DNA from: Cellulophaga omnivescoria | GTDB taxonomy: Bacteria; Bacteroidota; Bacteroidia; Flavobacteriales; Flavobacteriaceae | Length of the DNA stretch: 64,000 nt | NCBI RefSeq assembly: GCF_001999725.1 | Contig: NZ_MDDP01000006.1 | Coordinates: 1-64,000, forward strand | Reading direction: 5' to 3' | Shown: piece by piece, positions 36,592 through 61,813 of the stretch | Layout: each line of letters starts with the position of its first letter | Numbering within the stretch: the stretch's first letter is position 1 | Notes under the pieces: generated by a model | Databases searched by the model: none | The model's input: only the letters and a program-made list of their open reading frames with translations | Told to the model about the DNA's origin: nothing | Program-made: the position numbers and the translations under genes

Positions 36592-36708
36592 TTATATCAC
36601 TAGATAAAAACTGAACATAACGGAAATGTATATTTTATAAGCTGATTTGGTCAATAAAATGGCTACAAGTTATTTTATTTTTGAGATGTTAAATAATCGT
36701 CAAATTTT

Positions 36709-39963: not shown

Positions 39964-39988
39964 ATAGACCATTTTTTAAAGATATATT

Positions 39989-41503: not shown

Positions 41504-41515
41504 ATAACCAAATAA

Positions 41516-42622: not shown

Positions 42623-42637
42623 AATTATAAGTTAAGT

Positions 42638-44023: not shown

Positions 44024-44045
44024 ACTCCAAGTTATTTAACCTACT

Positions 44046-45533
44046 ATGAAAAACAGAATTTTTATAAAAGCTTGTTTGGTATTACTTTTTACAGGTTGTG
44101 CTAGTAAAAAAGTAACAACAGAAATACCTAATAAGAGCCTAAAATATACTGCAGATTGGGAGTCTTTACAGCAGTATAATGTGCCAGAATGGTATAAAGA
44201 TTTAAAGTTTGGAATTTATTTTCATTGGGGGCCATATTCTGTATCAGCGCATAAAAATGAGTGGTACTCTAGATGGATGTATGTGGACGGACACCCAATA
44301 AATGAACATCATAAAAAAACGTATGGTAGTTTAGATACCTTTGGTTATAAAGATTTTATACCAATGTTTACTGCAGAAAAGTTTAATGCAGATGCTTGGG
44401 CAGATTTATTTGTAAATGCAGGAGCACAATTTGCAGGACCAATAGCAGAACACGCAGATGGTTTTGCCATGTGGGATAGTAAGTTAACCAACTGGGATGC
44501 TAAAGACAAAGGGCCTAAAATAGATGTTGTTGGTGCTATGGAAAAAGCTATAAAGGCCCGTGGTTTAAAATTTATTACTACTTACCACAGGCATTGGTTA
44601 TACGCTTGGTACCCAACTTGGGATAAAAATACAGATGCTTTTAATACAGAATTTAGCGGTTTGTACGGCCCTAAAGTTCCAGAGGGCACTTTTGTTATGG
44701 CTAATAAACCTACAAAACCTTTACCAAATAAGGCGTTTAATGAAGAGTGGTTAAACAGACTTACAGAATTAACTACTAAGTATGACCCTGATATTGTTTG
44801 GTTTGATAATAAAATGGATATTATTAATGAAGAATACAGAAAACAATTTTTAGCAAACTTTTACAACCAAGGGTTAAAAAATAATAAGGAAGTTGTTGTA
44901 ACCTATAAATTTAAAGATTTAGCAGTTGGCTCTGCGGTTTTAGATTTAGAACGTTCTAGAATGAGTGATAAAAAAGACTTTACTTGGTTAACAGACGACT
45001 CAATAGATTGGAATTCTTGGAGTCATATAAAAAATCCTAAATATAAATCTACAAACAGACTTGTAGATTTTTTAGTAGATGTAGTAAGTAAAAACGGAGC
45101 AGTTTTATTAAACATAACTCCAACTGCAGAGGGAGAAATTCCTGCAAAAGTTAAAGAACGTTTGCTGCAAATGGGAACTTGGTTAAAAGTAAACGGAGAA
45201 GCTATATATGGTACAAGAACTTGGGAGGTTTTTGGAGAAGGTCCCGCCAAAGTGGTAGAAGGGCATTTAAGCGAGCATAAAAATAAAGACAACACAGAAA
45301 AAGACATTAGGTTTACAACAAAAGATGGTATACTGTATGCTATAGTTTTAGATTGGCCTAAGGATAAAGTTTTTATAACATCATTAGCAAATACAAAACA
45401 TCAAATTAAAAAAATAGAAATGTTGGGTACTAACCAAAAAATTGTTTGGGAACAAACAAAAAATGGTTTGGTTATACAACCTTCAAAAACAAAAATTGGT
45501 AACTATGCTTTTGTGTACAAAATAGTATTTTAA
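44046..45533 (+). CDS. GH29 glycosidase (alpha-L-fucosidase family), lipoprotein; copy 1
   Basis: A 495-residue lipoprotein (KACLVLLFTGC) of glycoside hydrolase family 29, retaining exo-enzymes for alpha-L-fucose or related L-sugars. FGIYFHWGPYSVSAHKNEWYSRWMY opens the TIM barrel, and the nucleophile is D254 in PDIVWFDNKMD. The usually invariant HHDGF reads H136-A137-D-G-F here, so one active-site His is replaced. A C-terminal beta-sandwich follows (DIRFTTKDGILYAIVLDWPKD). It is the last gene of the cytochrome/DUF1501 operon (22 bases after the DUF2231 fusion), 293 bases before susC. The target could be fucose or L-galactose of porphyran. Confidence 0.93.
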   Translation: MKNRIFIKACLVLLFTGCASKKVTTEIPNKSLKYTADWESLQQYNVPEWYKDLKFGIYFHWGPYSVSAHKNEWYSRWMYVDGHPINEHHKKTYGSLDTFGYKDFIPMFTAEKFNADAWADLFVNAGAQFAGPIAEHADGFAMWDSKLTNWDAKDKGPKIDVVGAMEKAIKARGLKFITTYHRHWLYAWYPTWDKNTDAFNTEFSGLYGPKVPEGTFVMANKPTKPLPNKAFNEEWLNRLTELTTKYDPDIVWFDNKMDIINEEYRKQFLANFYNQGLKNNKEVVVTYKFKDLAVGSAVLDLERSRMSDKKDFTWLTDDSIDWNSWSHIKNPKYKSTNRLVDFLVDVVSKNGAVLLNITPTAEGEIPAKVKERLLQMGTWLKVNGEAIYGTRTWEVFGEGPAKVVEGHLSEHKNKDNTEKDIRFTTKDGILYAIVLDWPKDKVFITSLANTKHQIKKIEMLGTNQKIVWEQTKNGLVIQPSKTKIGNYAFVYKIVF

Positions 45534-45740: not shown

Positions 45741-45770
45741 ACATATGTTTTACTTAAAAAAACATTTGTT
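45741..45770 (+). promoter_or_regulatory. Tandem half-sites (21-bp spacing) upstream of susC
   Basis: ACATATGTT (45741-45749) and ACATTTGTT (45762-45770) repeat at exactly 21 bp. An AAnnTTTG element like the -7 box begins at 45795, 32 bp after the C of the second half-site. The same arrangement occurs upstream of three other units of this locus. The spacing fits tandem binding by an AraC-type dimer. Confidence 0.6.
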
Positions 45771-45826
45771 ACTACGCTTAAAGTAAATAAAATCAACATT
45801 TGTGTAACTAAACTTAAAAAACGATT

Positions 45827-48800
45827 ATGGAAATGAAATTTAATTTACTTGTTAAGTCTAGACATAAAGCTTTGTTAACAATTTTATTTTTTGTTATGGG
45901 CTTTGGTTTGGCTCTAGCACAAACAAAAACCGTAACAGGTAATGTTAGCGCAGACGGCGAGCCACTTTTAGGGGTAAGTGTTGTTGTAAAAGGCACTACA
46001 AACGGTGTAGTTACAGATTTTGATGGAAACTACACTATACAAGCACAGCCAAGTAGTGTTTTAATATTTAGCTATATAGGATATGTAGCGCAAGAGATTA
46101 CCGTAGGTTCTAAAAGTACCATTAATGTAAGCTTGTTAGAAGATATAGAAGCATTAAAAGAAGTGGTACTTATTGGATACGGAGTACAAAAGAAAAGAGA
46201 GGTAACAGGTGCCGTTGCCCAAGTACAAGCAGAGGATATTGAAAAAATATCTACTGCAGACGTTGGTAGTGCACTGCAAGGGCAAATTGCAGGTGTAAAC
46301 GTAACTTCTAGTAGTGGACAACCAGGATCAGATGCTGTAATACTTATACGTGGTATTAACTCTGTTTTTGGTAGTAATTCTCCTTTGTATGTAGTAGATG
46401 GTATACCGCAAGATGGAAATCCGCAATTAAGTATTGCAGAAATAGAAACTATAGATGTACTAAAAGATGCAGCTTCTGCAGCTATTTATGGTACTAGAGG
46501 TTCTGCTGGTGTAATTTTAATTACTACCAAATCTGGTAAAGTTGGTAAAATGGATATTGGTATAACTAGTTATATGGGTGTACAAGACATTATCTCTTCT
46601 GTACCTTTAATGAATTTTGAGGACTCTATGTACAGTCAGTTTGTAAGGTTAAATAATATTAATGGAACTTTTCCAAATAATTCATTTACAACATTAGAGC
46701 AAAATCGTTACGACTTTACTAACAATACCTCATTAATGGATATTCTTCAGGAAGATATGGCATTAATACAAAACCATAATCTTAATATTTCTGGTGGTAA
46801 AGAAGGTTTAAGGTTTAATGTATCTGTAAACTATTTTGACCAACAAGGTTCATTAATTAATTCTGGTTTAGAAAGGTTAAATGTAAGGGCAAATACAACT
46901 TATAAAAAAGGAAAATGGACCTTTACAACTGGTATTGGTTTAAGAACAGATGAGCAAGAGTATACGCCATGGCAAATATTGTTAGATGGTTACAGATACA
47001 AACCTTATCAGCAATTAATAGACCCAAGCGCACCAACTGTAGATGATAGTGCTGGTACCACAAATAACAATGATGCCAGAAACTTAAGTTTTTTAATGGC
47101 AAAGCTTAAACAATCAGACGTTAGAAAAGGTGATAATTTTGATGCTCGTATGCAAATAGATTATCAATTACTTAATAGTTTAAAGCTAACAACACGTGCA
47201 TCATTAAGTAGAACAAATAACACAAGAGTAAGAATAAATCCTTTATTTACAGCATATTCTGTAGAGGGAGATTTAATACCACAACAAGTTAGATCTGGTG
47301 TTTATAACCAAAGTGATAGATCTACCAGCGCAACAATAGACGGTATTGCAACTTTTGATAAAACATATGGGGACCACCATGTAACTTTAGTTGGGGCTCT
47401 TAGTGCAGAAAAATATACATATGACTCTTTCTTTGCTCAAAAATTTGATCTCTTTAATAATGAAATTACAAATTTAAACGGTGCAACTTTAGATGCCAAT
47501 GTTGGTACAGGTAACGGCTACGGACAAGACAGAACCAATACCTTAATAGGTATGTTAAGTCGTGTACAGTATGATTATAAAGGTAAATACTTAATAAGTG
47601 CAAGTTTAAGACGTGATGGTACTAGTCGTTTTTCTAAAGAAAACAGATGGATATATGCACCATCTGCATCTGCAGCTTGGATTGCATCAGACGAAAAAGG
47701 TTGGGATGATATATTTGGACAAACCTTTAATTTCTTTAAAATGAGGTTTAGTTACGGTACAACAGGTAACCAAAGCATATTAGATTACAGTACTGCACCA
47801 ACTATTGGTTTAGGGCATGACTATGTTTTTGGTACAGGAACAGACCAAGTTTTGGTTTTAGGAGCAATACAAGAAGCATTTAAAAACCCTAAAGCTAAAT
47901 GGGAAAAGAAAATTGAAAAGAACTTTGGTATGGAGTTCGGATTTTTTAACAATAAACTTACAGTAACTAGTGAGGTTTATGATGGGTCTAGAACAAATAT
48001 GCTGTTCCCTGTTATTTTACCACCTACTGTTGGTGGTGGTAACAATTCTAATGTTATATTAAATGTTGGTGATATGCGCAACTATGGTACAGAGTGGAGT
48101 GCTAGTTATAAGCATAGGGGTAAGTTTAGTTGGAACGTTTCTGCTAATTATTCTAAAAACGAAAATAGAATTACAAGAATGAGTGATTCTAACAAGTTCT
48201 CATTCCTGGGGGGCAGTCAAGTTGCACCAGGTTTACCAGGAGAAGATTTGGTAACAGCACTTAGAGAGGGGTATGAAGCCGGTGCTTTCTTTTTAGTAGA
48301 AACAGACGGATTGGTTACTACACAAGCAGAGTTAGATGAATACAGACAAATAGATCCTACAGCAAATTTAGGAGATTTAAAGTACGTAGATCAGTTAACT
48401 GTAGATACAAATAATGATGGAATACCAGATGCTGGTGACGGAGAAATTACTTTAGATGACAGAGTTTATAAGGGTAGCGGAGCTCCAGAATATGAGTTAG
48501 GGTTAAATTTTAACGCAAACTATAAAAATGTAGATTTTTCTATGAACTGGTATGCAGCCATAGGAGGAGAAATAATTAATGGTAGTAAAGCCTACGCATA
48601 CAAGCAAGGTACACACCAAGACTTAGTCCATCAATGGACACAGTCTAATCCAACATCTACAATTCCTGCAGACAGAGGAAGAGATCATTTTAATTATAGA
48701 GGATATACAGACTACTGGTTGCAAGATGGTAGTTTTGGTAGGCTTAGAAACCTAACTCTAGGATACACTTTACCTAAAAAATTAAATGAAAAGCTTAATA

Positions 48801-48967
48801 TTAATAAATTAAGATTTTACATAGCAGCAGACAACCTATTAACCATAACTAATTATGATGGTTTTGATCCAGAAGTGGGTAATGATGGGTTAAGCACACG
48901 TGGTATAGATGCAGGTGTTTACCCAATAAGCACACAATATAGAGCTGGTATTGAATTTAAATTTTAA
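45827..48967 (+). CDS. susC: SusC/RagA-family TonB-dependent outer membrane receptor
   Basis: A 1046-residue outer membrane transporter that imports oligosaccharides together with SusD. A signal peptide (about 1-31, ILFFVMGFGLALAQ) is followed by a CarboxypepD-reg domain (about 35-105, VTGNVSADGEPLLGVSVVVKGTTNGVVTDFDGNYTI). The plug domain is at about 110-235, with LIGYGVQKKREVTGAVAQV, PLYVVDGIPQDGNPQ and the motif ASAAIYGTRGSAGVILITTK. The rest is the 22-strand barrel, ending in an aromatic C-terminus (YRAGIEFKF). It starts 57 bases after the tandem operator-like repeats and is followed by susD after 17 bases. The carried glycan is inferred from the neighbouring enzymes to be agar/porphyran fragments. 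Confidence 0.97.
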   Translation: MEMKFNLLVKSRHKALLTILFFVMGFGLALAQTKTVTGNVSADGEPLLGVSVVVKGTTNGVVTDFDGNYTIQAQPSSVLIFSYIGYVAQEITVGSKSTINVSLLEDIEALKEVVLIGYGVQKKREVTGAVAQVQAEDIEKISTADVGSALQGQIAGVNVTSSSGQPGSDAVILIRGINSVFGSNSPLYVVDGIPQDGNPQLSIAEIETIDVLKDAASAAIYGTRGSAGVILITTKSGKVGKMDIGITSYMGVQDIISSVPLMNFEDSMYSQFVRLNNINGTFPNNSFTTLEQNRYDFTNNTSLMDILQEDMALIQNHNLNISGGKEGLRFNVSVNYFDQQGSLINSGLERLNVRANTTYKKGKWTFTTGIGLRTDEQEYTPWQILLDGYRYKPYQQLIDPSAPTVDDSAGTTNNNDARNLSFLMAKLKQSDVRKGDNFDARMQIDYQLLNSLKLTTRASLSRTNNTRVRINPLFTAYSVEGDLIPQQVRSGVYNQSDRSTSATIDGIATFDKTYGDHHVTLVGALSAEKYTYDSFFAQKFDLFNNEITNLNGATLDANVGTGNGYGQDRTNTLIGMLSRVQYDYKGKYLISASLRRDGTSRFSKENRWIYAPSASAAWIASDEKGWDDIFGQTFNFFKMRFSYGTTGNQSILDYSTAPTIGLGHDYVFGTGTDQVLVLGAIQEAFKNPKAKWEKKIEKNFGMEFGFFNNKLTVTSEVYDGSRTNMLFPVILPPTVGGGNNSNVILNVGDMRNYGTEWSASYKHRGKFSWNVSANYSKNENRITRMSDSNKFSFLGGSQVAPGLPGEDLVTALREGYEAGAFFLVETDGLVTTQAELDEYRQIDPTANLGDLKYVDQLTVDTNNDGIPDAGDGEITLDDRVYKGSGAPEYELGLNFNANYKNVDFSMNWYAAIGGEIINGSKAYAYKQGTHQDLVHQWTQSNPTSTIPADRGRDHFNYRGYTDYWLQDGSFGRLRNLTLGYTLPKKLNEKLNINKLRFYIAADNLLTITNYDGFDPEVGNDGLSTRGIDAGVYPISTQYRAGIEFKF

Positions 48968-48984
48968 TTAAAAAAGAACTAGAA

Positions 48985-50787
48985 ATGAAAAAATTAATAG
49001 TTAAAAAAATAGCTGTTGCTTTACTGCTTATTATAAGCAGTACAGCGTGTTCAGACGATTATTTAGAAGAAACCAACCCTAACGAACTGTCAACAGGCAG
49101 TTTCTGGAAAAATAATGTAGATCTTAATGGAGGTTTAACGGCTGTATATAACGCTTTTAAAAATACAAGTGTTTTTAATATCGTTTCAGACAACCATAGG
49201 GCAGATATGAGTTGGCCAGGATTTGGTAGGCCAAACACACAAAATTCTTTCTACCTACAAACATTTAATGACTCAGAAAACGACATCAGAAATAAGTGGT
49301 CTGCTTTATACACAGTAATTTTTAGAGCAAACCAAGTTATAGCAAACGGAGAAAGATTAATTGAAACCTATGATGACCAAGATAATATAGACTTTGCAAC
49401 TCTAATTATAGCACAAGCAAAGTTTTTTAGAGGAATTGCATACACCTACTTGTATAATATGTTTAACCAAGGTAGTGTACCAATTTTTGATTTTGTTCCG
49501 GAAGCAGAAAGCGATTTTTATCAACCATTAAGTACAGCAGAAGAAGTTAAGGCTTTTTATTTAGCAGATTTAGAATTTGCCTATGAAAATTTACCTCCAG
49601 TGTGGGATGGCAATGCTAATGTTGGTAGGGTTACAGCGGCAGCTGCAGCAGCAGAATTAGGAAGAAGCTATTTGTATGAAGAAGATTATACAACAGCAGC
49701 AGTTTATTTTAATGATATTATTACTAACGGAGAATACGGCAGATCTTTAGTAGATAATATAAACGATAATTTTTCTGAAGCAGGAGAATTTAACTCAGAG
49801 TCTATTTTAGAGGTTAGTTATTCTATAAATTTTAAATCTGAATTAAACCCGTATGATTCTCAAAATGTATCTAATGTTTTAAGTAGAATATTTGCACCAG
49901 CAAACTTAGGAGGTTTTAGAGCTTCATTGCCAAGTGCCTGGTTGCAAATGGCTTATAAATCAGAAGAGTTAGATATGAATGACCCAAGAAACTTTGTGCC
50001 TTGTGAAGATGGTACAGAAGGTTGTGACCCAGTAACATTAATGAGGCCAAGATCATACTCATTACGTGCATCTTATTCTGTTGCGCTAGTAGATGATAAA
50101 GATACTCCTTATTACGGCGGGTTATCTACTGCAGATGCAACTATATTTAATAACAAAGAAACAGCCTATTTTAGGAAATACACAAACTGGGCAACGGTAA
50201 CATCAGAAAATGATATTGTACCAAATACTCGTTCTGGTTTAAATATACGTTTGGTTCGCTTGGCAGATATATACCTAATGTTAGCAGAGTGCTTAATTAA
50301 GGGTGGTACAGATGACGGTGGCGTAGAGCAAGCTATGGCCTTAATTAATGAAGTAAGGCATCGTTCTGCTTTAAAACTAATTGGCCCAGATGGTAGCGGT
50401 GCATACCCTAGTGCAGATCATGACAATATTACTTATGATGCTAATAGTTTAATGGAACATTTAATGTATGTAGAAAGACCATTAGAGTTGGCAGAAGAAG
50501 GGCACGCTGTACGTTTTATAGATTTAAGAAGATGGGGTATTTTAAAAGACCGCTTTCAAGATTTAAGTCAAAAAAGATATTGGGCAGATAATTACCCTTT
50601 TATAGACAAAGAAGGCAAATCTGTTACAAGGTGGGGTTCTGTATTAAAAGAAGGAGAAAGTCCTATAGCAAATGGCTTTATGTTTATAGATTATGCACAA
50701 GCTGCAGTAAATTATAACGAGAGTATACACGGGTATTACCCTATTCCAAATAGTGAAGTTACAGCCAACCCAAATTTGAATAACTAA
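48985..50787 (+). CDS. susD: SusD/RagB-family nutrient-binding outer membrane lipoprotein
   Basis: A 600-residue surface lipoprotein (IAVALLLIISSTACSDD) with the SusD N-terminal helices (YLEETNPNELSTGSFWKNNVDLNGGLTAVYNAFKN) and TPR-like scaffold. The family C-terminal block is at about 440-600 (NIRLVRLADIYLMLAECLIKGG...GVEQAMALINEVRHRSAL...ERPLELAEEGHAVRFIDLRRWGILKD...YYPIPNSEV). It forms the lid of the SusC transporter and captures glycan. Eleven bases separate it from the next lipoprotein gene. Confidence 0.97.
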   Translation: MKKLIVKKIAVALLLIISSTACSDDYLEETNPNELSTGSFWKNNVDLNGGLTAVYNAFKNTSVFNIVSDNHRADMSWPGFGRPNTQNSFYLQTFNDSENDIRNKWSALYTVIFRANQVIANGERLIETYDDQDNIDFATLIIAQAKFFRGIAYTYLYNMFNQGSVPIFDFVPEAESDFYQPLSTAEEVKAFYLADLEFAYENLPPVWDGNANVGRVTAAAAAAELGRSYLYEEDYTTAAVYFNDIITNGEYGRSLVDNINDNFSEAGEFNSESILEVSYSINFKSELNPYDSQNVSNVLSRIFAPANLGGFRASLPSAWLQMAYKSEELDMNDPRNFVPCEDGTEGCDPVTLMRPRSYSLRASYSVALVDDKDTPYYGGLSTADATIFNNKETAYFRKYTNWATVTSENDIVPNTRSGLNIRLVRLADIYLMLAECLIKGGTDDGGVEQAMALINEVRHRSALKLIGPDGSGAYPSADHDNITYDANSLMEHLMYVERPLELAEEGHAVRFIDLRRWGILKDRFQDLSQKRYWADNYPFIDKEGKSVTRWGSVLKEGESPIANGFMFIDYAQAAVNYNESIHGYYPIPNSEVTANPNLNN

Positions 50788-50798
50788 AAAAAGATATT

Positions 50799-52355
50799 AT
50801 GAATAATAGATTAATTTTAATAGCATTAGTTATAGCGCTTTTTACCGCATGTAACAGTGATGATTATGATGCTCCTAATTCGTTCTCAGATGTATCTTGG
50901 TATACAAGTGGTTTTAGAGATACAATTGTAAGTATTAATGTAAACGATTTTGCATCGTTTTCAGATTTATCACAAGGAGAAATATCTCATAAATGGACTA
51001 TAGAAGAAGGTAGTTACTATTTAAAAGGGCCAATTAAGCGTAAAGATTCTATTTATGACGATTTTATTATTACGCCGCAGTCTCTAGAGAGTACAGACAA
51101 AACAGTACATGTTTTGTTTAAAGAAGGTGGCTTAAAAAAAGTAAACCTTTATAATGAGTTTAAAGAATATGTAGAGTTTAAAGGTGCAGATGGTTTTGTT
51201 TTTCCTTCTAAAGAGGTAGGTGGCAAATGGGTTATAGATACTACTTTTGTTGTAGATGTGTATGACACTATTGTACCGCAAATACTAATTCGCCAAAACG
51301 GAGTAGTTGTTCCTCATGAATTAGAGAGTGATGTTATTACGGTAGAAGCAGGGTCAACATTAGAGTTTGTAGACATTACTACTATTGGTCGTCCTAATAC
51401 TAGAGCATGGCAAATAGGAGATATTACCAGTACAGACTCTCTTGCTGTAATACAATTAAACCAATTGGGTTCTTTTAAAGGAGGGCTAAATATAAGTAGA
51501 CAAGGAGAAAATATACCAGCAGATTATGATAGGTACAATATTGCAGCTACCATAAACGTAGTGCCATCATCATTACCTTTTGAGGTTGCCGGTGATTTGG
51601 TAGAATTAGAAAACCAAACTATACAAATACCTTATAATGGAGAATTTAAACCTTTTGCAGACCAAAAAGCTCATTTTACAGTAAACGTAAATGGTACTCC
51701 TTTTACAATTTCTACAATAGGATTAAATTCTTCTAATGCAACAATTTTAGAAATTAAATTACAAGAGCAAATATATAGGTCAGATAATATTACCGTTTCA
51801 TATGATGGTAATGGTACCCTAGAGTCTACAGACACACGTATTCCAGCTGCTTTTACAGATTTGCCTGTTCAAATGTATCAGCATGAGGCAGTACGTTATG
51901 ACATAGAAGATGGTGGTGCCAACTGGACCACTAAAGATGATAATTTGCCAACTACAACTGTTGCTCCTTCTACAGAGCAAGCTGCTAGTGGTCAATACAG
52001 TATTAAGGTAGATGCAGCACAATCTGGTCCATGGTCTGGTTTTCATAACGTAATAGATCAATATACGTTAACAGCAGGGGTAACATACCAGTTAGAGTAT
52101 AAAATTTACAAGCAAGCTGGTGCAGTTATAAATATGAACGGACCTTGGATACAAAAAGACGGAGAAACTGTATTTCAGTTTTGGAATAATATTGTTGCAA
52201 CAGCAGCAGAAGATACTTGGGTTACGGTAAGTCCAGCTCAAAGGTTTACTGCAGCTACTACGGGTAGTGATTATGAAATATATTTAAGACACAATGGTAT
52301 GGGTGTTATATATTTTGATGATATAAGAATTATGGAAGTAGATGAAAGACCATAA
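50799..52355 (+). CDS. Surface lipoprotein with C-terminal carbohydrate-binding module
   Basis: A 518-residue lipoprotein (ILIALVIALFTACNSDD) at the SusE/SusF position. The middle is beta-rich with two or three Ig-like domains and no known name. The last 155 residues (EDGGANWTTKDDNLPTTTV...ASGQYSIKVDAAQSGPWSGFHNVIDQYTLTAGVTYQLEYKIYKQAG...YEIYLRHNGMGVIYFDDIRIMEVDERP) are a CBM4/9-like beta-sandwich. It is likely a surface glycan-binding protein holding the polysaccharide near SusCD. A terminator follows. Confidence 0.8.
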   Translation: MNNRLILIALVIALFTACNSDDYDAPNSFSDVSWYTSGFRDTIVSINVNDFASFSDLSQGEISHKWTIEEGSYYLKGPIKRKDSIYDDFIITPQSLESTDKTVHVLFKEGGLKKVNLYNEFKEYVEFKGADGFVFPSKEVGGKWVIDTTFVVDVYDTIVPQILIRQNGVVVPHELESDVITVEAGSTLEFVDITTIGRPNTRAWQIGDITSTDSLAVIQLNQLGSFKGGLNISRQGENIPADYDRYNIAATINVVPSSLPFEVAGDLVELENQTIQIPYNGEFKPFADQKAHFTVNVNGTPFTISTIGLNSSNATILEIKLQEQIYRSDNITVSYDGNGTLESTDTRIPAAFTDLPVQMYQHEAVRYDIEDGGANWTTKDDNLPTTTVAPSTEQAASGQYSIKVDAAQSGPWSGFHNVIDQYTLTAGVTYQLEYKIYKQAGAVINMNGPWIQKDGETVFQFWNNIVATAAEDTWVTVSPAQRFTAATTGSDYEIYLRHNGMGVIYFDDIRIMEVDERP

Positions 52356-52376
52356 AAAATAATTTTTTTAAAAAGT

Positions 52377-52406
52377 GGCTCTACTGCACTAAGTAGGGCC
52401 TTTTTT
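52377..52406 (+). terminator. Rho-independent terminator after the CBM lipoprotein gene
   Basis: GGCTCTACT and AGTAGGGCC pair (9 bp, one G-T) around a 6-base loop, then TTTTTT. It separates the susCD unit from the GH16 gene, which needs its own promoter. Confidence 0.88.
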
Positions 52407-52504
52407 ATGCCTAAAATACTGGTGTTGTCTATTTTTTGTACAGTTTTTTTTTGTGCTAAAATCACAATCATTCTACAACTTTGAGCCAAACTAATTAATT
52501 TATT

Positions 52505-53494
52505 ATGATGAAATTTAATGTAGCAATAGTACTCTTATTGTTTTATGTAGTGTCTTGTAGTGATAATGAATCTACAGATAAAACTACAGATGAAGAGGTA
52601 ATAGAAACACCAGAAATCCCAACTGAAGAACCAGAAGAAGAACCAGAAGTAACTTGGAAAACCATACCTGTGCCAGCAGAAGCAGGAGAAGGTAATGTTT
52701 GGGAGTTTCAAAATATGTCAGACAGTTTTGATTATGAAGCAGAGGCCGCTAATAAAGGAGCAGAATTTGATGCCAAATGGACCGATTTTTATCATAACCA
52801 ATGGTCTGGACCCGGATTAACAGAATGGAAAAGAGACCATTCTTTAGTTAAAGATGGTTATTTACAAATGGTTGCTAGTAGAGTACCAAATTCTAATAAA
52901 ATTCATTTAGGTTGTATAACCTCAAAAGAACAAGTAGTTTACCCGGTGTATATAGAGGCGTATGTAAAAATTGCAAATACTACGCTAGCATCAGATGTTT
53001 GGCTTTTAAGCTCAGATGATACTCAGGAGATAGACATTGTAGAGGCTTACGGAGCAAGCTACTCAGAGTTAGCACAGGCAGACCAAACTTGGTATGCAGA
53101 ACGTATTCATTTAAGTCATCATATGTTTATTAGAGAACCTTTTCAAGATTACCAACCAACAGATGCAGGTAGTTGGTATAAAGATGAGGTTGGTACATTA
53201 TGGAGAGAAGATTTTCATAGAGTAGGAGTGTACTGGAGAGATCCATTTCATTTAGAGTATTATATAAACGGAGAGTTGGTAAGAACAACCTCTGGAGCAG
53301 AAATGATAGACCCTAATAATTATGCAGATGGTAAAGGTTTAAGTAAACCTATGGATATAATTATTAATGCAGAGGATCAAACATGGAGATCAGATAAAAA
53401 TATTACACCATCTGATGCAGAATTGGCTAATAAAGAAAATAATACATTTAAAGTAGATTGGATTCGTATTTTTAAACCGGTTAAAGCAGATTAA
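52505..53494 (+). CDS. GH16 beta-agarase/beta-porphyranase-type endohydrolase, lipoprotein
   Basis: A 329-residue lipoprotein (VAIVLLLFYVVSC) with a Glu/Pro-rich linker (about 25-52) and a GH16 catalytic domain. The catalytic motif is E175-I-D177-I-V-E180: nucleophile E175, acid/base E180. Blocks shared with algal agarases/porphyranases are TDFYHNQWSGPGLTEWKRDHSLVKDGYLQMVASR, DVWLLSSDDTQ, RIHLSHHMFIREPFQDYQPTDAGSWY and FHRVGVYWRDPFHLEYYINGELVR. It would cut beta-1,4 bonds in agarose or porphyran at the cell surface. Agarase versus porphyranase cannot be decided from these motifs. Confidence 0.9.
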   Translation: MMKFNVAIVLLLFYVVSCSDNESTDKTTDEEVIETPEIPTEEPEEEPEVTWKTIPVPAEAGEGNVWEFQNMSDSFDYEAEAANKGAEFDAKWTDFYHNQWSGPGLTEWKRDHSLVKDGYLQMVASRVPNSNKIHLGCITSKEQVVYPVYIEAYVKIANTTLASDVWLLSSDDTQEIDIVEAYGASYSELAQADQTWYAERIHLSHHMFIREPFQDYQPTDAGSWYKDEVGTLWREDFHRVGVYWRDPFHLEYYINGELVRTTSGAEMIDPNNYADGKGLSKPMDIIINAEDQTWRSDKNITPSDAELANKENNTFKVDWIRIFKPVKAD

Positions 53495-53501
53495 ATGTAT
53501 T

Positions 53502-53533
53502 AATCATATGTTTTATTCATAAAATCATATGTT
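53502..53533 (+). promoter_or_regulatory. Tandem half-sites (21-bp spacing) upstream of sulfatase 1
   Basis: TCATATGTT occurs twice, at 53504-53512 and 53525-53533, inside an identical 11-base direct repeat (AATCATATGTT). A -7-like TAACTTTT begins at 53557. The layout matches the sites upstream of susC and GH29 copies 2 and 3. Confidence 0.6.
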
Positions 53534-53565
53534 ATTCTTTAGTACTAAAAAAAATGTAACTTTTG

Positions 53566-53588
53566 TAAAGCGCTTTAATTAGCGCTTT
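53566..53588. promoter_or_regulatory. Palindrome TAAAGCGCTTTA with flanking hairpin arm
   Basis: TAAAGCGCTTTA (53566-53577) is a perfect 12-bp palindrome of the kind bound by LacI/GalR-family regulators. AAAGCGC can also pair with a second GCGCTTT (53582-53588) to make a weak terminator for the GH16 gene. Either role, or both, is possible. Confidence 0.4.
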
Positions 53589-53616
53589 TACTTTATATAA
53601 CTAAAACCAACCAAAA

Positions 53617-55275
53617 ATGTTTAAAAAGCTATTTTGTTTTTCACTATTTACGGCAACCATTATTTCATGTGCCGAAAAAGAAAAAATTACAATAGAAACC
53701 AAAAAGCCAAATATAATTTACATAATGGCAGACGATCATACGTCACAAGCATTTGGTATATATGGTAGTAGGTTGGCAAGTTTAAATCCTACTCCAAACT
53801 TAGATAAAATTGCTAACGAAGGTATTATTTTTGATAATTGTTTTGTTACAAACTCTATTTGTACACCAAGTAGAGCAACTATGATTACGGGTCAATATAG
53901 CCAAACAAATGGCGTGTTAGATTTAGAAGGGCATATACCCCCAGAAAGGCAATATTTACCACAGGAAATGAAAAAATTAGGGTATGAAGCTGCTGTGGTT
54001 GGCAAATGGCATTTAGAAGATGAGCCTGCTACTTTTGATTATTATGCTGTATTACCAGGACAAGGTAAATACCATGATCCTGAATTTATAGTGCAAGGAG
54101 AACAAGAGTGGCCAAAAAACAGAATACAAACCAAAGGACATTCTAGTGATAATATTACAGATTTAACTATTGCTTGGTTAAAAGACAAACGCAATAAAGA
54201 CAAGCCGTTTTTTTTAATGCACCATTACAAAGCACCTCATGACGATTTTGAGTATGCACCGCGTTATAAAGATTATTTAGAAAATACGTATATACCAGAA
54301 CCAGCAAGTTTGTATGAGAATGGTAATAATGGTTCTATAGCAACAAGGGGTGCTAATGATTCTTTACTGCGTGTTATAGGCTCATCTGTATCTAAAAGAA
54401 ACATTGTGAGAAGTATGGGAATGCGATTGTGGTCTAATGAGTATACTAAAATATCTAACCCAGAGTTTGATGCCTCAAGCATTTCTTTGGATATGACAGA
54501 TAAAGAATACACTCACAAAACGTACCAAGAGTACTTAAAAAGATATTTACGTTGTGTAAAAGGTGTAGATGACAATGTAGCCAGATTGGTAAAATTTTTA
54601 AAAGAAGAAGGCTTGTATGATAATACTATAATTGTGTACACAGGCGACCAAGGTTTTATGCTGGGAGAACATGATTATATAGATAAAAGATGGATGTATG
54701 AAGAATCTATGCGTATGCCATTTTTTGTGCGTTATCCAGAAAAAATAAAGGCTGGTACTAGATCAGACGCAATAATTAACAATGCAGATTTTGCACCTAC
54801 TTTAATAGAGTTAGCTGGTGGCACAGCCCCAGAAAAAATGCAAGGGCATAGTTTTAAGTCTATTTTAGAAACAGGTAAAGAACCAAAAGGGTGGCAGCAG
54901 TCTACTTACTACAGGTACTGGATGCATATGGCACACGCACATGCAAACCCTGCTCACTTTGGTATTAGAACAAAACAATACAAACTAATATTTTTTTATG
55001 GTAAATATTGGGTAGATACTAAAGACCCTAATGCTACATGGAACAAAAAAAGTTGGGGTAATAAGTTTGAGATGGACACACCAGCTGCTTGGGAGTTTTA
55101 TGATTTAACTAAAGATCCTAAAGAAATGAATAATGCCTACAATGACCCTGCGTATAAAGATATAATTAAGGAACTTAAAAAGCAGTTAAAAGCCAAACGT
55201 AAAAGTTTAAAAGAGGAAGATGGTAGTAAGTTTCCGCACATACAAAAGGTAATAGATGAGCATTGGAATGATTAA
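53617..55275 (+). CDS. S1-family sulfatase 1 (lipoprotein)
   Basis: A 552-residue exported sulfatase (signal LFCFSLFTATIISC). The formylglycine motif is C82-T-P-S-R86 in FVTNSICTPSRATMITGQYSQ. Metal-binding blocks are NIIYIMADDHTSQ near the N-terminus and IIVYTGDQGFMLGEHDYIDKRWMYEESMRMPFFVRYP. It needs an activating enzyme to convert C82; none is in the window. It likely removes sulfate esters from algal galactan oligosaccharides, such as the 6-sulfate of L-galactose in porphyran; the position is not proven. It lies 28 bases before the DUF5060 gene, with which it is cotranscribed. Confidence 0.93.
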   Translation: MFKKLFCFSLFTATIISCAEKEKITIETKKPNIIYIMADDHTSQAFGIYGSRLASLNPTPNLDKIANEGIIFDNCFVTNSICTPSRATMITGQYSQTNGVLDLEGHIPPERQYLPQEMKKLGYEAAVVGKWHLEDEPATFDYYAVLPGQGKYHDPEFIVQGEQEWPKNRIQTKGHSSDNITDLTIAWLKDKRNKDKPFFLMHHYKAPHDDFEYAPRYKDYLENTYIPEPASLYENGNNGSIATRGANDSLLRVIGSSVSKRNIVRSMGMRLWSNEYTKISNPEFDASSISLDMTDKEYTHKTYQEYLKRYLRCVKGVDDNVARLVKFLKEEGLYDNTIIVYTGDQGFMLGEHDYIDKRWMYEESMRMPFFVRYPEKIKAGTRSDAIINNADFAPTLIELAGGTAPEKMQGHSFKSILETGKEPKGWQQSTYYRYWMHMAHAHANPAHFGIRTKQYKLIFFYGKYWVDTKDPNATWNKKSWGNKFEMDTPAAWEFYDLTKDPKEMNNAYNDPAYKDIIKELKKQLKAKRKSLKEEDGSKFPHIQKVIDEHWND

Positions 55276-55303
55276 AAAAATATAGCTAAATAAAAACAGT
55301 GTT

Positions 55304-56923
55304 ATGCAAAATGTATTAAAACTTTTAATAGTTACTAGTTTGCTAAGTTTTACAGTAGTAACTAGCCAACTTAAAAAAGAAAACTACACGTTAAACACTG
55401 TTTTTAAAATTCCAAAATGGGAGGTTTTAGATATAACATTTACAACAAACCAAAATGTAGCATCTCCTTATACGGCTAATTTTTATGCAATTTTTACGCA
55501 TAGTAATGGTACAGTACAGCAAGTGCCTGGTTTTTATAATGGGAATAAAGAATGGGTAATACGGTTTTCTAGTTCTTTAAAGGGTAATTGGAAATTTACA
55601 ACCTATGCAGATCTAAAAAAAATACATCATAAAAAAGGTAGTGTAACGGTATCTTCTGCAGCCACTAATAATCACGGAGCATTAGTGATACCAAAAATTG
55701 ATCCTCAAAATTTTTATTATGAAGATGGCACTCCGTACTTTTTATTGGCCTTTGAGTGCGATTGGCTTTATGCCTTAGACTACCACAACAAAAAAGGATT
55801 GCCAAAAACAGAGCATCTTTTAAATCTTTTAAACCAAAACGGATTTAATCAGGTAGTGATGAATGTTTTTTCTTATGATGTTAGCTGGATTAAAGATTCT
55901 AAATTAAAACAACATCCAGAACATGAGTTTGGTGGACCAAAAGATATTTTTCCTTTCCTTGGCAATAATGACAATCCAAATTATTCAGCTCTAAACCCAG
56001 ATTTTTTTAAAAAATTAGATCGTACTATTAGCTTAATGCATAACAAGCGTATAGCTACGCATTTAATGATATATGTTTGGAATAAATTGGTTGCTTGGCC
56101 TAATATGAATACAGATGCAGATAATATGTATTTTGATTATGTAGTAAAAAGGTACCAAGCTTTTCCTAATATAGTATGGGATATTTCTAAAGAGGCGCTA
56201 TACTATGGTAGGGCAGATGAAGCGTATATTCACGGAAGAATAGAAAGGTTAAAAACAAATGACAAATACAACAGGTTGGTGTCTGTACATGATTATAAAT
56301 ATTGCTCTAATTTTCCAGATAAGGTAGATTTTATTTCTTCTCAAAATTGGTCACATAACATTTATAACAAAATGTTAGAAGCCAAAACAAAATTTAAAAA
56401 CAAACCCATATTTAATATCGAGCACGGTGGCTATGAGGAGTCTATGTATACTGTTTTTACAGGAGATTATACCAATGCAGAAACCTGTTTACGTCGCAAT
56501 TATATGTGCTTATTTGCAGGTGTGTACACCACTTATTATTGGCAAGGTACTTCATGGAATGTAATTATTTATAACCCTTTTGAGCAACCTAAAGAGTTTT
56601 ATAAACCAAAGTTTACTTACTTTAATTACGTGCAAAAACTATTTAGTAAGTTTCAGTTTCATAAAATGAAACCTATTCCTTGGCATAACGGTAGTGGTTA
56701 TAACTTAACAGATGATAAAGGCACAGTTCTACTGTACATACACAAAGAAAACTACGGTATAGATGCCGCATTTTTAAAAAAGAAAGATGAAAACCGAACT
56801 ATGCAGTGGTTTAATACCCTAACAGGAGAGTTTACAAAAGAGGTAGCTATTAAAAAACAAGGTAAGTTTAGGTCTCCTTGGTCACAAAAGGCAGATGCAA
56901 TACTTATTTCTAGGCTTAAATAG
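55304..56923 (+). CDS. DUF5060/DUF4038 glycoside hydrolase-like protein (GH140-like barrel)
   Basis: A 539-residue exported protein. After a signal peptide, residues about 28-105 form a DUF5060 beta-sandwich (WEVLDITFTTNQNVASPYTANFYAIFTHSNGTVQQVPGFYNGNKEWVIRFSSSLKGNWKFTTYAD). Residues about 130-450 form a TIM barrel of the DUF4038 type, with PYFLLAFECDWLYALDY, NQVVMNVFSYDVSWIKD, NIVWDISKEALYYGR and FNIEHGGYEESMYTVFTGDY. The Glu residues of DISKE and NIEHGG are where the acid/base and nucleophile of GH140-like enzymes lie. The substrate is unknown; it belongs to the same unit as sulfatase 1. Confidence 0.82.
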   Translation: MQNVLKLLIVTSLLSFTVVTSQLKKENYTLNTVFKIPKWEVLDITFTTNQNVASPYTANFYAIFTHSNGTVQQVPGFYNGNKEWVIRFSSSLKGNWKFTTYADLKKIHHKKGSVTVSSAATNNHGALVIPKIDPQNFYYEDGTPYFLLAFECDWLYALDYHNKKGLPKTEHLLNLLNQNGFNQVVMNVFSYDVSWIKDSKLKQHPEHEFGGPKDIFPFLGNNDNPNYSALNPDFFKKLDRTISLMHNKRIATHLMIYVWNKLVAWPNMNTDADNMYFDYVVKRYQAFPNIVWDISKEALYYGRADEAYIHGRIERLKTNDKYNRLVSVHDYKYCSNFPDKVDFISSQNWSHNIYNKMLEAKTKFKNKPIFNIEHGGYEESMYTVFTGDYTNAETCLRRNYMCLFAGVYTTYYWQGTSWNVIIYNPFEQPKEFYKPKFTYFNYVQKLFSKFQFHKMKPIPWHNGSGYNLTDDKGTVLLYIHKENYGIDAAFLKKKDENRTMQWFNTLTGEFTKEVAIKKQGKFRSPWSQKADAILISRLK

Positions 56924-56943
56924 TAGTAAAAACAGGGAATTAG

Positions 56944-56973
56944 ACATTTGGTCTACTATAAAAAACATACGTT
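56944..56973 (+). promoter_or_regulatory. Tandem half-sites (21-bp spacing) upstream of GH29 copy 2
   Basis: ACATTTGGT (56944-56952, one mismatch to the WCATNYGTT consensus) and ACATACGTT (56965-56973) lie exactly 21 bp apart, 72 bases before the gene. The downstream -7 box is weak. Confidence 0.5.
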
Positions 56974-57044
56974 TTAATGCTTTTAAAACTATAGTTAGAA
57001 TTTCGCTTTAGATAAGTAAGAACAACCTTTAAGATCTATTAGAT

Positions 57045-58592
57045 ATGAAAAGTGGAAAATATATAGTACTTAGCCTTTTTATTCTCTCTTTAACTATTTT
57101 GTCTTGTGCAGATAAAAAAGATAAAAAGCAGGAAATAGCTCAAGAAACTAAGCCAGTTTATGAAGCAAACTGGGAATCAATCAAAAAAAATTATAAAGAC
57201 CCAACTTGGTTCAATAAAAAAAAGTTTGGAATTTTTATTCATTGGGGCGCATATAGTGTTCCAGCATATTCATCAGAATGGTACCCACGTAAAATGTATA
57301 TGGATACGGCTACTTTTTCTGCGCAACTAAATTTAGAAAAAAAGGGACCTTCTGATGTATATAACCACCACAAAGAAAAATGGGGAGATCAAAAAAAGTT
57401 TGGTTATAAAGATTTTATACCAATGTTTAAAGGAGAAAATTTTGATGCGAATGAATGGATAGATTTGTTTAAAAAATCTGGTGCAAAATATGTGATACCC
57501 GTGGCAGAACATCATGATGGTTTTGCAATGTACAAATCTAATGTTACACGTTGGAACTCGGTAGATATGGGACCTAAAAGAGATGTTTTAGGAGAGTTAT
57601 TTAAAGCCGGAAGACAAAAAGGTATGATTATGGGAGCATCTTCTCACTTTGCTTTTAATTGGTCTTTTTTTAACAAAAAAGATCATTTTGATACTACAAA
57701 CCCTGAGTATGCAGATTTGTACTCTACAAAAGGTAAAGATTTAAACGAACCTGTTTCTAAAGAGTTTAAAGAGTTGTGGTGGGCAAGAACTAAAGATATT
57801 ATAGATAATTACCAACCAGATATTATGTGGTTCGATTTTTATTTAGATATTCCAGATTTTGAAGATCAGAGACCAAAATTAGCTGCTTATTACTATAATA
57901 AAGGTATAGAGTGGGGTAAAGAGGTTGTTCTACAAGATAAAAACTTTTCTCATGAAGCTTTCCCTGAGGGTACAGTTATTTATGATCTAGAACGAGGTAA
58001 ACTACCTGGTATACGTAAATTACCTTGGCAAACAGATACCTCTATTGGCAAAAACTCTTGGAGCTATGTTTCTAATTGGCAGTCTAAAACAGCCAACCAA
58101 ATTGTAGATGATTTGGTAGATATTGTTAGTAAAAACGGAAATCTTTTACTAAATGTAGGGCCTAAATCTGACGGTACCATACCAGAAGATCAAAAAGAAA
58201 TTTTACTACAAATAGGAGATTGGTTAACTATAAATGGTGATGCTATTTATAACACTACTTACTGGAAAACCTTTGGAGAAGGACCAACAGAGGTTAAAAA
58301 GGGGCACCACTCTGAAGGGAATAATAAAGACCTTTCTTCTAAAGACATTAGGTTTACAACCAAAGATAATAAGCTTTATGCTATTGTTTTAGATTGGCCT
58401 AAAGATGGTATTGTAACTATAGAGTCTTTAGCTAAAGGATCAGAACATGCTAAAGATTTAAATATTACCAGTGCAAGAGTATTGGGTAGTAAAGAAAAAA
58501 TAAAGTGGAGTCAAGAAAAAGATGGTTTTAAAGTTACAATGCCAAAAGAAAAACCAGGAGACTTTGCATATGTTATTGAGTTAAAAATGTAG
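57045..58592 (+). CDS. GH29 glycosidase (alpha-L-fucosidase family), lipoprotein; copy 2
   Basis: A 515-residue lipoprotein (SLFILSLTILSC) of family GH29. FGIFIHWGAYSVPAYSSEWYPRKMY starts the barrel, the active-site block AEH156-H157-DGFAMYKSNVTRW is fully canonical, and the nucleophile is D264 in PDIMWFDFYLD. The C-terminal beta-sandwich has DIRFTTKDNKLYAIVLDWPKDG, nearly identical to copy 1. Of the three GH29 enzymes this is the most standard. It is preceded by the 21-bp-spaced half-sites and followed by a terminator. Confidence 0.94.
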   Translation: MKSGKYIVLSLFILSLTILSCADKKDKKQEIAQETKPVYEANWESIKKNYKDPTWFNKKKFGIFIHWGAYSVPAYSSEWYPRKMYMDTATFSAQLNLEKKGPSDVYNHHKEKWGDQKKFGYKDFIPMFKGENFDANEWIDLFKKSGAKYVIPVAEHHDGFAMYKSNVTRWNSVDMGPKRDVLGELFKAGRQKGMIMGASSHFAFNWSFFNKKDHFDTTNPEYADLYSTKGKDLNEPVSKEFKELWWARTKDIIDNYQPDIMWFDFYLDIPDFEDQRPKLAAYYYNKGIEWGKEVVLQDKNFSHEAFPEGTVIYDLERGKLPGIRKLPWQTDTSIGKNSWSYVSNWQSKTANQIVDDLVDIVSKNGNLLLNVGPKSDGTIPEDQKEILLQIGDWLTINGDAIYNTTYWKTFGEGPTEVKKGHHSEGNNKDLSSKDIRFTTKDNKLYAIVLDWPKDGIVTIESLAKGSEHAKDLNITSARVLGSKEKIKWSQEKDGFKVTMPKEKPGDFAYVIELKM

Positions 58593-58613
58593 TTAGATTT
58601 TTTTAATGTTAGT

Positions 58614-58653
58614 AAAAGCCAAAATTTTATTAGTTTAAAATATTGGCTTTTTA
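58614..58653 (+). terminator. Rho-independent terminator after GH29 copy 2
   Basis: AAAGCCAAAATTTTA pairs with TAAAATATTGGCTTT (14 of 15 positions), followed by T residues. Confidence 0.88.
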
Positions 58654-58718
58654 TTTTATCTATTGTGTGTGCTAAAACTAATAAACACTTAATTACCTGT
58701 GGTTTTTAGCACAATTCA

Positions 58719-58748
58719 TCATCCGTTCTATATTCTAAAACATACGTT
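58719..58748 (+). promoter_or_regulatory. Tandem half-sites (21-bp spacing) and -7 box upstream of GH29 copy 3
   Basis: TCATCCGTT (58719-58727) and ACATACGTT (58740-58748) are 21 bp apart. A consensus -7 box TATTTTTG (58773-58780) starts 32 bp after the C of the second half-site, so the activator would touch the -33 region. Confidence 0.6.
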
Positions 58749-58864
58749 ATCTGCTAAAGGAGGCTATTAAATTATTTTTGAAATGTGTTTAAGGTAACAA
58801 ACAACACTTTTAGTAATTAGGAGCAAAAAAGAAAAGACTTTGCTACTATAATATCCTTTTTAGT

Positions 58865-60430
58865 ATGGTAAAATTAAAATTAACAATAGCAGTTTTTAGT
58901 ATAGTAGCGTTTAGTTATAGTCAATCTTCAAAAGAACAAAAAAATAGTAATGCGGTATATACAAAAAGTTGGGAGTCTTTAGCAAAGGTAAATGCTACTC
59001 CCAATTGGTTTAAAGATGCTAAGTTTGGAATATATGCCCATTGGGGACCAGTTTCTTCTGCTTTTGAAGGTACAGATGCAGATAAGTATTATGCTGGTTG
59101 GCACGGAATGAAAATGTATGAAGACGGTAAAAAAGTACCAACCAAAAATGGTAAGCCAACAACTAACTACCTACACCACAAAAAAAAGTATGGTAAGCCA
59201 GCAAAATATGGTTATAAGCATATAATAGAACAATTTTCTCCTACTGCTTTTAATGCAAAAGAATGGGCAGAGTTATTTAAAAAATCAGGAGCTAAATTTG
59301 CAGGGCCTGTAGCTATGCACCATGATAATTTTGCTATGTGGAACAGCAAGGTCACACGTTGGAATTCTATAAATTATGGTGGCATAGATCCATCAGCAGA
59401 ATTAAAAAAAGAAATAGAGGCAAAGGGGCTAAAATTTATGGCTTCTTTTCACCATGCATTTACGTGGAAATATTTTGCACCTGCACACAAACATGGCGGC
59501 ATAAACCCTAAAGATTATGACTTATATACAAATCCACATTCATTAGAATCTAATACTCCAGATGAAGATTTTTATAATGATTGGTGGCTTAAAATTAAAG
59601 AATATATAGATGTGTACCAACCAGATTTAATTTGGTTTGACTGGTGGTTAGAGAATATGACAGAAGAAAGTAGACAGCAATTTTTAGCATATTATTACAA
59701 TAAAGGAATTGAATGGAACAAAGAGGTTGTAGTGTCTTACAAAGAATCTACTTTTCCTGAAACCACTGCTGTTAAAGACTATGAGCGTGGAAGACCAAAC
59801 CAGCCAAAGTCTCCTATGTGGTTAACAGATACGTCTCCTGGTGCTTGGTTTTACAGACCCAATGCCAAGTTTAAAACGCCAAATGAGCTTGTAGATATAC
59901 TTGTAGATATTGTATCTAAAAATGGTTTAATGTTGTTAAATGTGCCACCAAACCCTGATGGATCTATACCTCAAGAAATGAAAAACTTATTGTTAGATAT
60001 GGGAAGTTGGTTAGCTGTAAACGGAGATGCAATTTATGGTACAAGACCTTGGACAATTTTTGGTGAGGGGCCTACTCGTTTACCAGAAGGCGGACATAAA
60101 GTTGAAAAATTTAAAATAGCATACACAGATGCAGATATTAGGTTTACTAAAAAATCAGATAAGGAATTTTATATTATAGTAATGGATACTCCTAAAAAAG
60201 AAATTACGGTAAAGTCTTTATCTACCGCTATAGGAGTATTAAACTCTAAAATAGAAAATATAAGTTTATTGGGCAGTAATGAAAAAATTAGCTGGAAAAG
60301 AGACCAAAGAGGACTTGTAATAGCCAACCCAGCTAAACTACCAACAAAATATGCACACGCATTTAAAGTTAGTTTAGAGGGTTATAAAGAAAACAATATT
60401 GGTGGTACAATAGACGCTCATGCAGATTAA
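58865..60430 (+). CDS. GH29 glycosidase (alpha-L-fucosidase family); copy 3
   Basis: A 521-residue protein with a cleavable signal peptide (LTIAVFSIVAFSYSQ), so it is periplasmic instead of a lipoprotein. GH29 features are FGIYAHWGPVSSAFEGTDADKYYAGW and nucleophile D259 in PDLIWFDWWLE. The usual EHHDGF block reads AMH152-H153-D-N155-F: Glu becomes Met and Gly becomes Asn next to the sugar-binding histidines. The C-terminal sandwich is also more divergent than in copies 1 and 2. A different L-sugar or linkage is therefore likely. The GH43 gene follows after 37 bases. Confidence 0.92.
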   Translation: MVKLKLTIAVFSIVAFSYSQSSKEQKNSNAVYTKSWESLAKVNATPNWFKDAKFGIYAHWGPVSSAFEGTDADKYYAGWHGMKMYEDGKKVPTKNGKPTTNYLHHKKKYGKPAKYGYKHIIEQFSPTAFNAKEWAELFKKSGAKFAGPVAMHHDNFAMWNSKVTRWNSINYGGIDPSAELKKEIEAKGLKFMASFHHAFTWKYFAPAHKHGGINPKDYDLYTNPHSLESNTPDEDFYNDWWLKIKEYIDVYQPDLIWFDWWLENMTEESRQQFLAYYYNKGIEWNKEVVVSYKESTFPETTAVKDYERGRPNQPKSPMWLTDTSPGAWFYRPNAKFKTPNELVDILVDIVSKNGLMLLNVPPNPDGSIPQEMKNLLLDMGSWLAVNGDAIYGTRPWTIFGEGPTRLPEGGHKVEKFKIAYTDADIRFTKKSDKEFYIIVMDTPKKEITVKSLSTAIGVLNSKIENISLLGSNEKISWKRDQRGLVIANPAKLPTKYAHAFKVSLEGYKENNIGGTIDAHAD

Positions 60431-60467
60431 ATTAACAACTAACGTAAACCAACATAATTTATATTAT

Positions 60468-61808: not shown

Positions 61809-61813
61809 GAAGA

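Follow-up and report, generated by a model that had tools for sequence, protein, structure and literature searches.

A putative tandem half-site operator at a fixed distance from the -7 element in a glycan locus of Cellulophaga omnivescoria, predicted to be bound by a hybrid two-component system regulator

We analysed a window of 64,000 nucleotides from Cellulophaga omnivescoria (assembly GCF_001999725.1, contig NZ_MDDP01000006.1, here C48, positions 1 to 64,000 of the forward strand), in which pairs of short half-sites precede several transcription units of a glycan locus. Between 44 and 91 kb, contig C48 carries three GH29 genes, SusC, SusD, sulfatases, GH43, GH16, GH2 and a beta-porphyranase-type protein, followed by a hybrid two-component system (HTCS) gene. 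This gene content suggests that the substrate is a sulfated red-algal galactan. The genes bearing on the operator are the following.

45827 to 48967, + strand: SusC-like TonB-dependent transporter (Pfam Plug, CarbopepD_reg_2), the first gene after its operator
48985 to 50787, + strand: SusD-like lipoprotein (Pfam SusD_RagB), placed in the susC unit by its spacing
53617 to 55275, + strand: sulfatase 1 (Pfam Sulfatase)
57045 to 58592, + strand: GH29 copy 2 (Pfam Alpha_L_fucos)
58865 to 63328, + strand: GH29 copy 3, GH43 with CBM6, and a sulfatase (Pfam assignments)
35616 to 36485, - strand: one-component AraC protein (Pfam HTH_18), probably not the binder of this operator
C48:85598-89908, - strand: HTCS of 1436 amino acids, located at the distal end of this locus, some 22 kb past the window

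The half-site pattern is WCATNYGTT, and a pair is defined as two direct copies whose starts lie 21 bp apart. Four pairs were found in the window.

45741 to 45770, + strand: susC-unit operator, with exact half-sites at 45741-45749 and 45762-45770; kept in C. baltica and, with one mismatch, in Galbibacter
53504 to 53533, + strand: operator of the sulfatase 1 unit, half-sites 53504-53512 and 53525-53533, both exact; orthologous sites exist
56944 to 56973, + strand: operator before the unit of GH29 copy 2, with its half-sites at 56944-56952 (one mismatch) and 56965-56973; fits the refined pattern given below; orthologous sites exist
58719 to 58748, + strand: operator of the GH29 copy 3, GH43 and sulfatase unit, half-sites 58719-58727 and 58740-58748, both exact; orthologous sites exist

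The eight half-sites, seven of them exact and that at 56944 (ACATTTGGT) with one mismatch, lie with their 21-bp spacing at the positions reported in an earlier note on this DNA. Three exact pairs occur in the window versus none in 100 dinucleotide shuffles; lone half-sites are not enriched there (16 versus 11 expected). When intergenic pairs with at most one mismatch were counted over spacings of 9 to 44, four fell at distance 21 and otherwise one each at 34 and 41; in 100 Markov simulations at the same tolerance, distance 21 averaged 0.01 pairs and never had more than 1. At two mismatches, the window holds six intergenic pairs at spacing 21 versus at most three at any other. Upstream of GH29 copy 1 (44046-45533), no operator match was found even at two mismatches.

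The pair is also rare in the genome as a whole. Across 3.8 Mb, the exact pattern matches four times, three of them in the window, and the reversed pattern not at all. When the shared spacer letters are included, the refined pattern CATNYGKTYTAYN5AAANCATNYGT matches perfectly at five places in the genome, all in this locus (45742, 53505, 56945 and 58720 on the + strand, 85556 on the - strand). These five score perfectly by construction, because the pattern was fitted to them. The informative part of the scan is that nothing else in the genome comes near: there is no one-mismatch match genome-wide, and the next best have two mismatches. Three such matches exist, namely the mirror of the susC site, C2:71054 and 78295 (- strand). 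At up to three mismatches the genome stands at background (39 matches versus 38 in the control). Three further sites of the locus lie beyond the window.

C48:78295, - strand: intergenic, 60 bp before the GH2 gene, two mismatches to the refined pattern
C48:85556, - strand: perfect match to the refined pattern
C48:90016, + strand: 92 bp before a dehydrogenase gene, two mismatches to the looser pattern

Sequence comparison thus places the putative operator before at least seven transcription units, three of them beyond the window; the four units named earlier were correct, and the set is larger. A two-mismatch scan of the whole genome was discarded as evidence: it gave 57 forward and 75 reverse matches versus 85 and 90 in the reversed control, so loose matches by themselves are noise. 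Weak sites are credible only through their position in the locus and a promoter box at the distance described below. The fourth exact match, C43:121694 (L001 1501-1530), lies between another HTCS gene and a susC-type gene, both on the minus strand, and was not counted as an operator. It is oriented away from susC, has no A-rich spacer and, as read by eye, no box at +33; it is either a chance match or the own site of the paralogous HTCS.

According to the introduction of PMC7366714, the -7 element of Bacteroidota is TAnnTTTG, and a -33 element has been sought in Flavobacterium and not found. The earlier note described a -7-like box 31-32 bp past the second half-site in three of the four cases. 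The box exists, and its distance had to be corrected: at all four window sites, the first base of.A..TT lies exactly 33 bp downstream of the first base of the second half-site (24 bp past the end of that half-site). The full.A..TTTG stands at this +33 position in three of them; GH29 copy 2 has GAATTTCG.

45795 to 45802, + strand: -7-like element AACATTTG of susC, at +33 counted from where the second half-site begins
53558 to 53565, + strand: -7-like element AACTTTTG of sulfatase 1, +33
56998 to 57005, + strand: weak -7-like element GAATTTCG of GH29 copy 2, +33, identical in all eight orthologous rows
58773 to 58780, + strand: -7 element TATTTTTG of GH29 copy 3, +33

The distance was followed in the loci of ten genomes, where every match with at most two mismatches was tallied, both strands of one near-palindrome were counted separately, and an intergenic match was called near when within 200 bp of a gene start. 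Many tallied rows are orthologues and are therefore not independent events. Among the 65 near-gene intergenic matches,.A..TTTG stands at +33 in 36 and is absent from every other offset between +9 and about +60. The loose form,.A..TT, was present at +33 in 55 of these 65, in two of 17 far intergenic matches and in none of 15 inside genes. Nine of the ten near-gene failures concern HTCS promoters or the gene divergent from the HTCS, and one lies before the HTCS gene of genome G409. This full tally of every match extends one of 56 hand-picked sites, from which mirror-strand, coding and some two-mismatch matches were left out.

The same distance was seen in other genera. There, 38 loci were fetched around HTCS orthologues (G180:C74, with an HTCS of 50% identity, was left out), and sites were called with a weight matrix trained on 55 rows (the HTCS-promoter row dropped) of 30 distinct sequences, other sites of G286, G409 and Galbibacter included. 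In 39 intergenic sites,.A..TTTG stood at +33 in 18 and at +34, +49 and +58 in one each. The loose box was at +33 in 35 of the 39, versus two of 15 sites in or far from genes. A motif-free map of repeated nine-base blocks before 126 -7 elements of HTCS-lineage loci gave the same spacing: the eight top cells of 754 were all at 21 bp. Counted per promoter at seven of nine matching bases, spacing 21 scored 22, the next (33) 13, and other spacings 3.6 on average. The controls of this map are not neutral, as the one-component AraC loci show the geometry themselves and the other control has only 10 boxes.

The operator is conserved in relatives. Judged by SusC, the nearest named relatives are Cellulophaga fucicola (94%) and C. 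baltica (84%). All four window sites are letter-identical in C. fucicola; in C. baltica, the spacing and the majority of half-site letters are preserved. In Galbibacter orientalis (SusC 78% identical), the susC site is present with one mismatch. The pair is present in orthologous loci, and its close matches do not turn up at random genomic places at the same rate. This rarity elsewhere and this conservation support the earlier proposal of a single operator of one regulator for the locus.

Pairs of this kind could alternatively be promoter repeats that arose when upstream regions were duplicated and that no regulator recognises; duplication is plausible, as the cluster holds three GH29 copies. 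The pattern of identity speaks against such an origin. Between the seven units of the C. omnivescoria locus, the two half-sites agree at 80% and 69%, versus only 32% in the 24 bp before the box and 38% in the 15 bp upstream. Between species, too, the operator changes less than its flanks: over six units compared with C. baltica (G370), the number of identical positions is 144 of 156 for half-sites plus box, 63 of 72 for spacers and 194 of 348 for flanks. The same operator also precedes different SusC-type genes in three genomes, and we regard duplication without a regulator as hardly credible.

These genes, at G397:C1:2818591, G286:C1:286893 and G409:C6:54491, have 1099, 1099 and 1061 codons and a Plug domain. 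Since the operator stands before differing SusC-type genes, transporter genes may have been exchanged under a conserved switch. A separate observation concerns a sortilin/BNR-repeat protein of 870-882 residues (L125 12277-14889), which follows such a site in G399, G402, G397 and G405; the retrieved part of the C. omnivescoria genome showed no such site.

For the binder, the earlier note named two candidates: a hybrid two-component regulator outside the window, and the AraC protein at 35616-36485. The distribution of sites favours the two-component regulator. In 18 genomes of the genus, at least three perfect matches to the pattern with a free spacer occur in exactly the seven that encode the HTCS at 76% identity or more (Fisher's test, p = 3e-5); ten of the other 11 have no perfect match, and G398 has one. 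Across 397 genomes of the family, 23 exact matches were found in 17 genomes versus 5 for the reversed control, and 13 of the 23, spread over eight genomes, have a same-strand gene directly downstream. All eight encode an HTCS of at least 52% identity, versus 27 of 397 family-wide (Fisher's test, p = 1.6e-10); these 27 are the 30 listed genomes minus G046, G219 and G342 (39-40% identity). Outside the genus, the figure for genomes with upstream sites is 6 of 6 (p = 3.5e-8). In seven of the eight genomes, the site and the HTCS-group gene share a contig, and in five non-genus genomes they are 16 to 80 kb apart.

The genes behind the non-genus sites encode a sulfatase (G072, G286), a SusC-type protein (G286), GH16 (G213), GH29 (G011), DUF1565 (G134) and, in G061, a protein with a secretion tail only; the counted G061 site overlaps the first bases of the called frame, which also has a later start. 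The remaining exact matches were not counted as operators. Seven of the 23 lie inside open frames, five of which (G175, G049, G323, G071, G134) are frames of 678-679 codons with near-identical surroundings and are probably one gene; three (G179, G346, G199) have no same-strand gene within 300 bp.

Binding of the pairs by the one-component AraC protein deserves attention, as its gene adjoins the locus and 21-bp tandem half-sites are a binding target of AraC proteins. An AraC orthologue is also present in all seven site carriers of the genus, so the genus alone cannot separate the AraC protein from the HTCS. Other genomes part them. G072, G134 and G061 have exact upstream sites and the HTCS with no AraC orthologue at E 1e-40, so the sites are not found solely alongside that protein. 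G409 has the HTCS (56%) and a one-mismatch site before the SusC-type gene beside it, again with no AraC orthologue. The converse case is G203, which has an AraC orthologue (58%) and lacks both an HTCS orthologue and a perfect site. Next to the AraC gene, the intergenic gap contains no WCATNYGTT pair (best 3-5 mismatches in nine genomes), and a different tandem element stands there in all nine, the most telling of these observations. Taken together, this makes the AraC protein an improbable binder of the pairs.

36621 to 36650, + strand: separate 21-bp tandem element CGGAAATGT-N12-CTGATTTGG, kept in nine of nine genomes, G203 included

In the window, the element is followed by TATTTTTG at 36676, and in nine of nine genomes a box TATTTTTG or TATCTTTG begins at +34 from the start of the second copy. 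Judged by position and conservation, 36621-36650 is likely the AraC protein's own operator, before the divergent genes at 36709-45533. The simplest reading would then involve two regulators, the AraC protein for the 36709-45533 genes and the HTCS for the rest. Within the former group, 36709-44023 holds PSD1/PSCyt, DUF1501 and cytochrome-type genes, a Pfam set named for planctomycetes that here stands in a flavobacterial glycan locus.

A repeat at 21 bp was also found at other AraC genes. In 24 one-component AraC loci of the C. omnivescoria genome, six of 30 boxes are preceded by an eight-of-nine repeat at 21 bp, with different words, and other spacings at this stringency averaged 0.11 and never exceeded 1. 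Promoters by one-component AraC genes in L019, L024, L032, L035 and L036 carry such 21-bp repeats of other words at a similar distance from the -7 element. In 21 paralogous-HTCS loci, none of 52 reached eight of nine, and at seven of nine there were 4 versus a mean of 2.2. The spacing rule may hold for several AraC-type activators; it is not shown for HTCSs in general. We tentatively suggest, with slightly less than even confidence, that AraC-family activators of Flavobacteriaceae, HTCS and one-component alike, use a rigid 21-bp repeat of any word with its second copy about 33 bp before the -7 element. If this is true, one could locate the operator of an AraC-type regulator in a promoter without knowledge of its motif.

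A global Crp-like regulator of the BT4338 type was considered as a further candidate. Its consensus, wwwTATGTTnTAnAACATAwww (available part of PMC11501099), has a left arm that resembles the CATATGTTnTA of several half-sites, with TATGTT in common. It is an inverted repeat with a short, 4-bp centre, unlike the direct repeats of this locus. The palindrome TATGTTnTAnAACATA has no exact match over 45-91.5 kb and a single one-mismatch match, which overlaps the GH29 copy 3 site; of its four two-mismatch matches, two (78319, 90025) fall at other sites, as the shared TATGTT/ACATA letters would give. Close operator matches are confined to one locus, and the chance that such a protein binds these sites appears very slight.

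The HTCS at C48:85598-89908 contains, in its single 1436-amino-acid frame, Reg_prop propeller repeats and Y_Y_Y, HisKA, HATPase_c, Response_reg and HTH_18 domains, and its gene shares the locus with susC/susD and the glycan enzymes. Its HTH domain is 75-100% identical in 34 orthologues, versus 43-51% in seven paralogues and 25% to the AraC protein of the window, as expected if the operator word is old. The tandem half-sites before seven units, the fixed 33-bp distance to the -7 element, the conservation across genera and the co-occurrence with the HTCS provide support at the sequence level. On these grounds we predict that the pairs are very probably the operator of this single HTCS.

Several observations weigh against this prediction. 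An AraC match at E 1e-40 or better is present in 20 of the 25 HTCS genomes outside the genus, and because the two proteins co-occur in most genomes, their separation rests on G072, G134, G061, G409 and G203. At one mismatch, the free-spacer pattern matches in 17 of the 18 genus genomes; this is background, and loose matches carry little information. The G072 site and HTCS gene lie on separate contigs, and neither G072 (TTACTTCG) nor G134 (TAAACTAA) has the box at +33. The exact box is absent at +33 from 21 of the 39 other-genera sites. No exact match stands upstream of a gene in 19 of the 27 HTCS genomes, many of which have weaker sites near the HTCS, and 10 of the 38 fetched HTCS loci have no site at a score of 12 or more. 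Finally, the 21/33-bp geometry is not shown in the neighbourhoods of paralogous HTCSs.

Regulation by the HTCS could proceed as follows. The sensor of this putatively membrane-anchored protein would bind a breakdown product of the sulfated red-algal galactan, and a phosphorelay inside the protein would then allow the AraC-type domains to bind both half-sites, two helical turns apart on one face of the DNA. Since the proximal half-site lies just upstream of the expected -33 contact, activation by polymerase contact is suggested; from there, it would help to recruit RNA polymerase. AraC at araI1-I2 likewise helps to recruit RNA polymerase from the proximal half-site, araI2.

A near-palindromic two-mismatch site was also observed at C48:90015-90043 (L006 7015-7043), between the HTCS gene and the divergent dehydrogenase gene. 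Near-palindromic two-mismatch sites occur at the HTCS promoter in several genomes, with no +33 box on the HTCS side; autoregulation of the HTCS through such a site is possible.

The arrangement resembles known systems. E. coli AraC occupies two tandem half-sites 21 bp apart at araI1-I2, the proximal one next to the core promoter, and the sites described here share both traits; AraC differs in being a one-component soluble activator of a sigma-70 promoter with different half-sites. In Bacteroides thetaiotaomicron, 16 HTCS motifs have been predicted, each a direct repeat, with the two copies 21 bp apart on average (Ravcheev et al. 2013, available part of PMC3878776). As at those sites, a direct repeat of about 21 bp precedes operons assigned to an HTCS that is encoded with susC/susD; the present sites differ in belonging to marine Flavobacteriaceae, another class, and to a locus of the sulfated-galactan type. 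The likeness drawn here concerns the repeat arrangement and its spacing, and the fixed distance to the -7 element, unmentioned in the available part of PMC3878776, is added here. Our search of mainly open-access literature, partly in excerpt, returned neither a mapped HTCS operator from a marine flavobacterium nor any mention that operator and -7 element are separated by a fixed distance. Tandem HTCS half-sites about 21 bp apart are already known, and what is new is the rigid 33-bp distance to the -7 element.

With these predictions, a marine algal-glycan locus gains a concrete operator, a likely regulator and a list of targets, and the locus would be divided between two regulators. For the sensors that control glycan breakdown in Bacteroidota, the two distances, 21 bp and 33 bp, would provide a sharp promoter rule.

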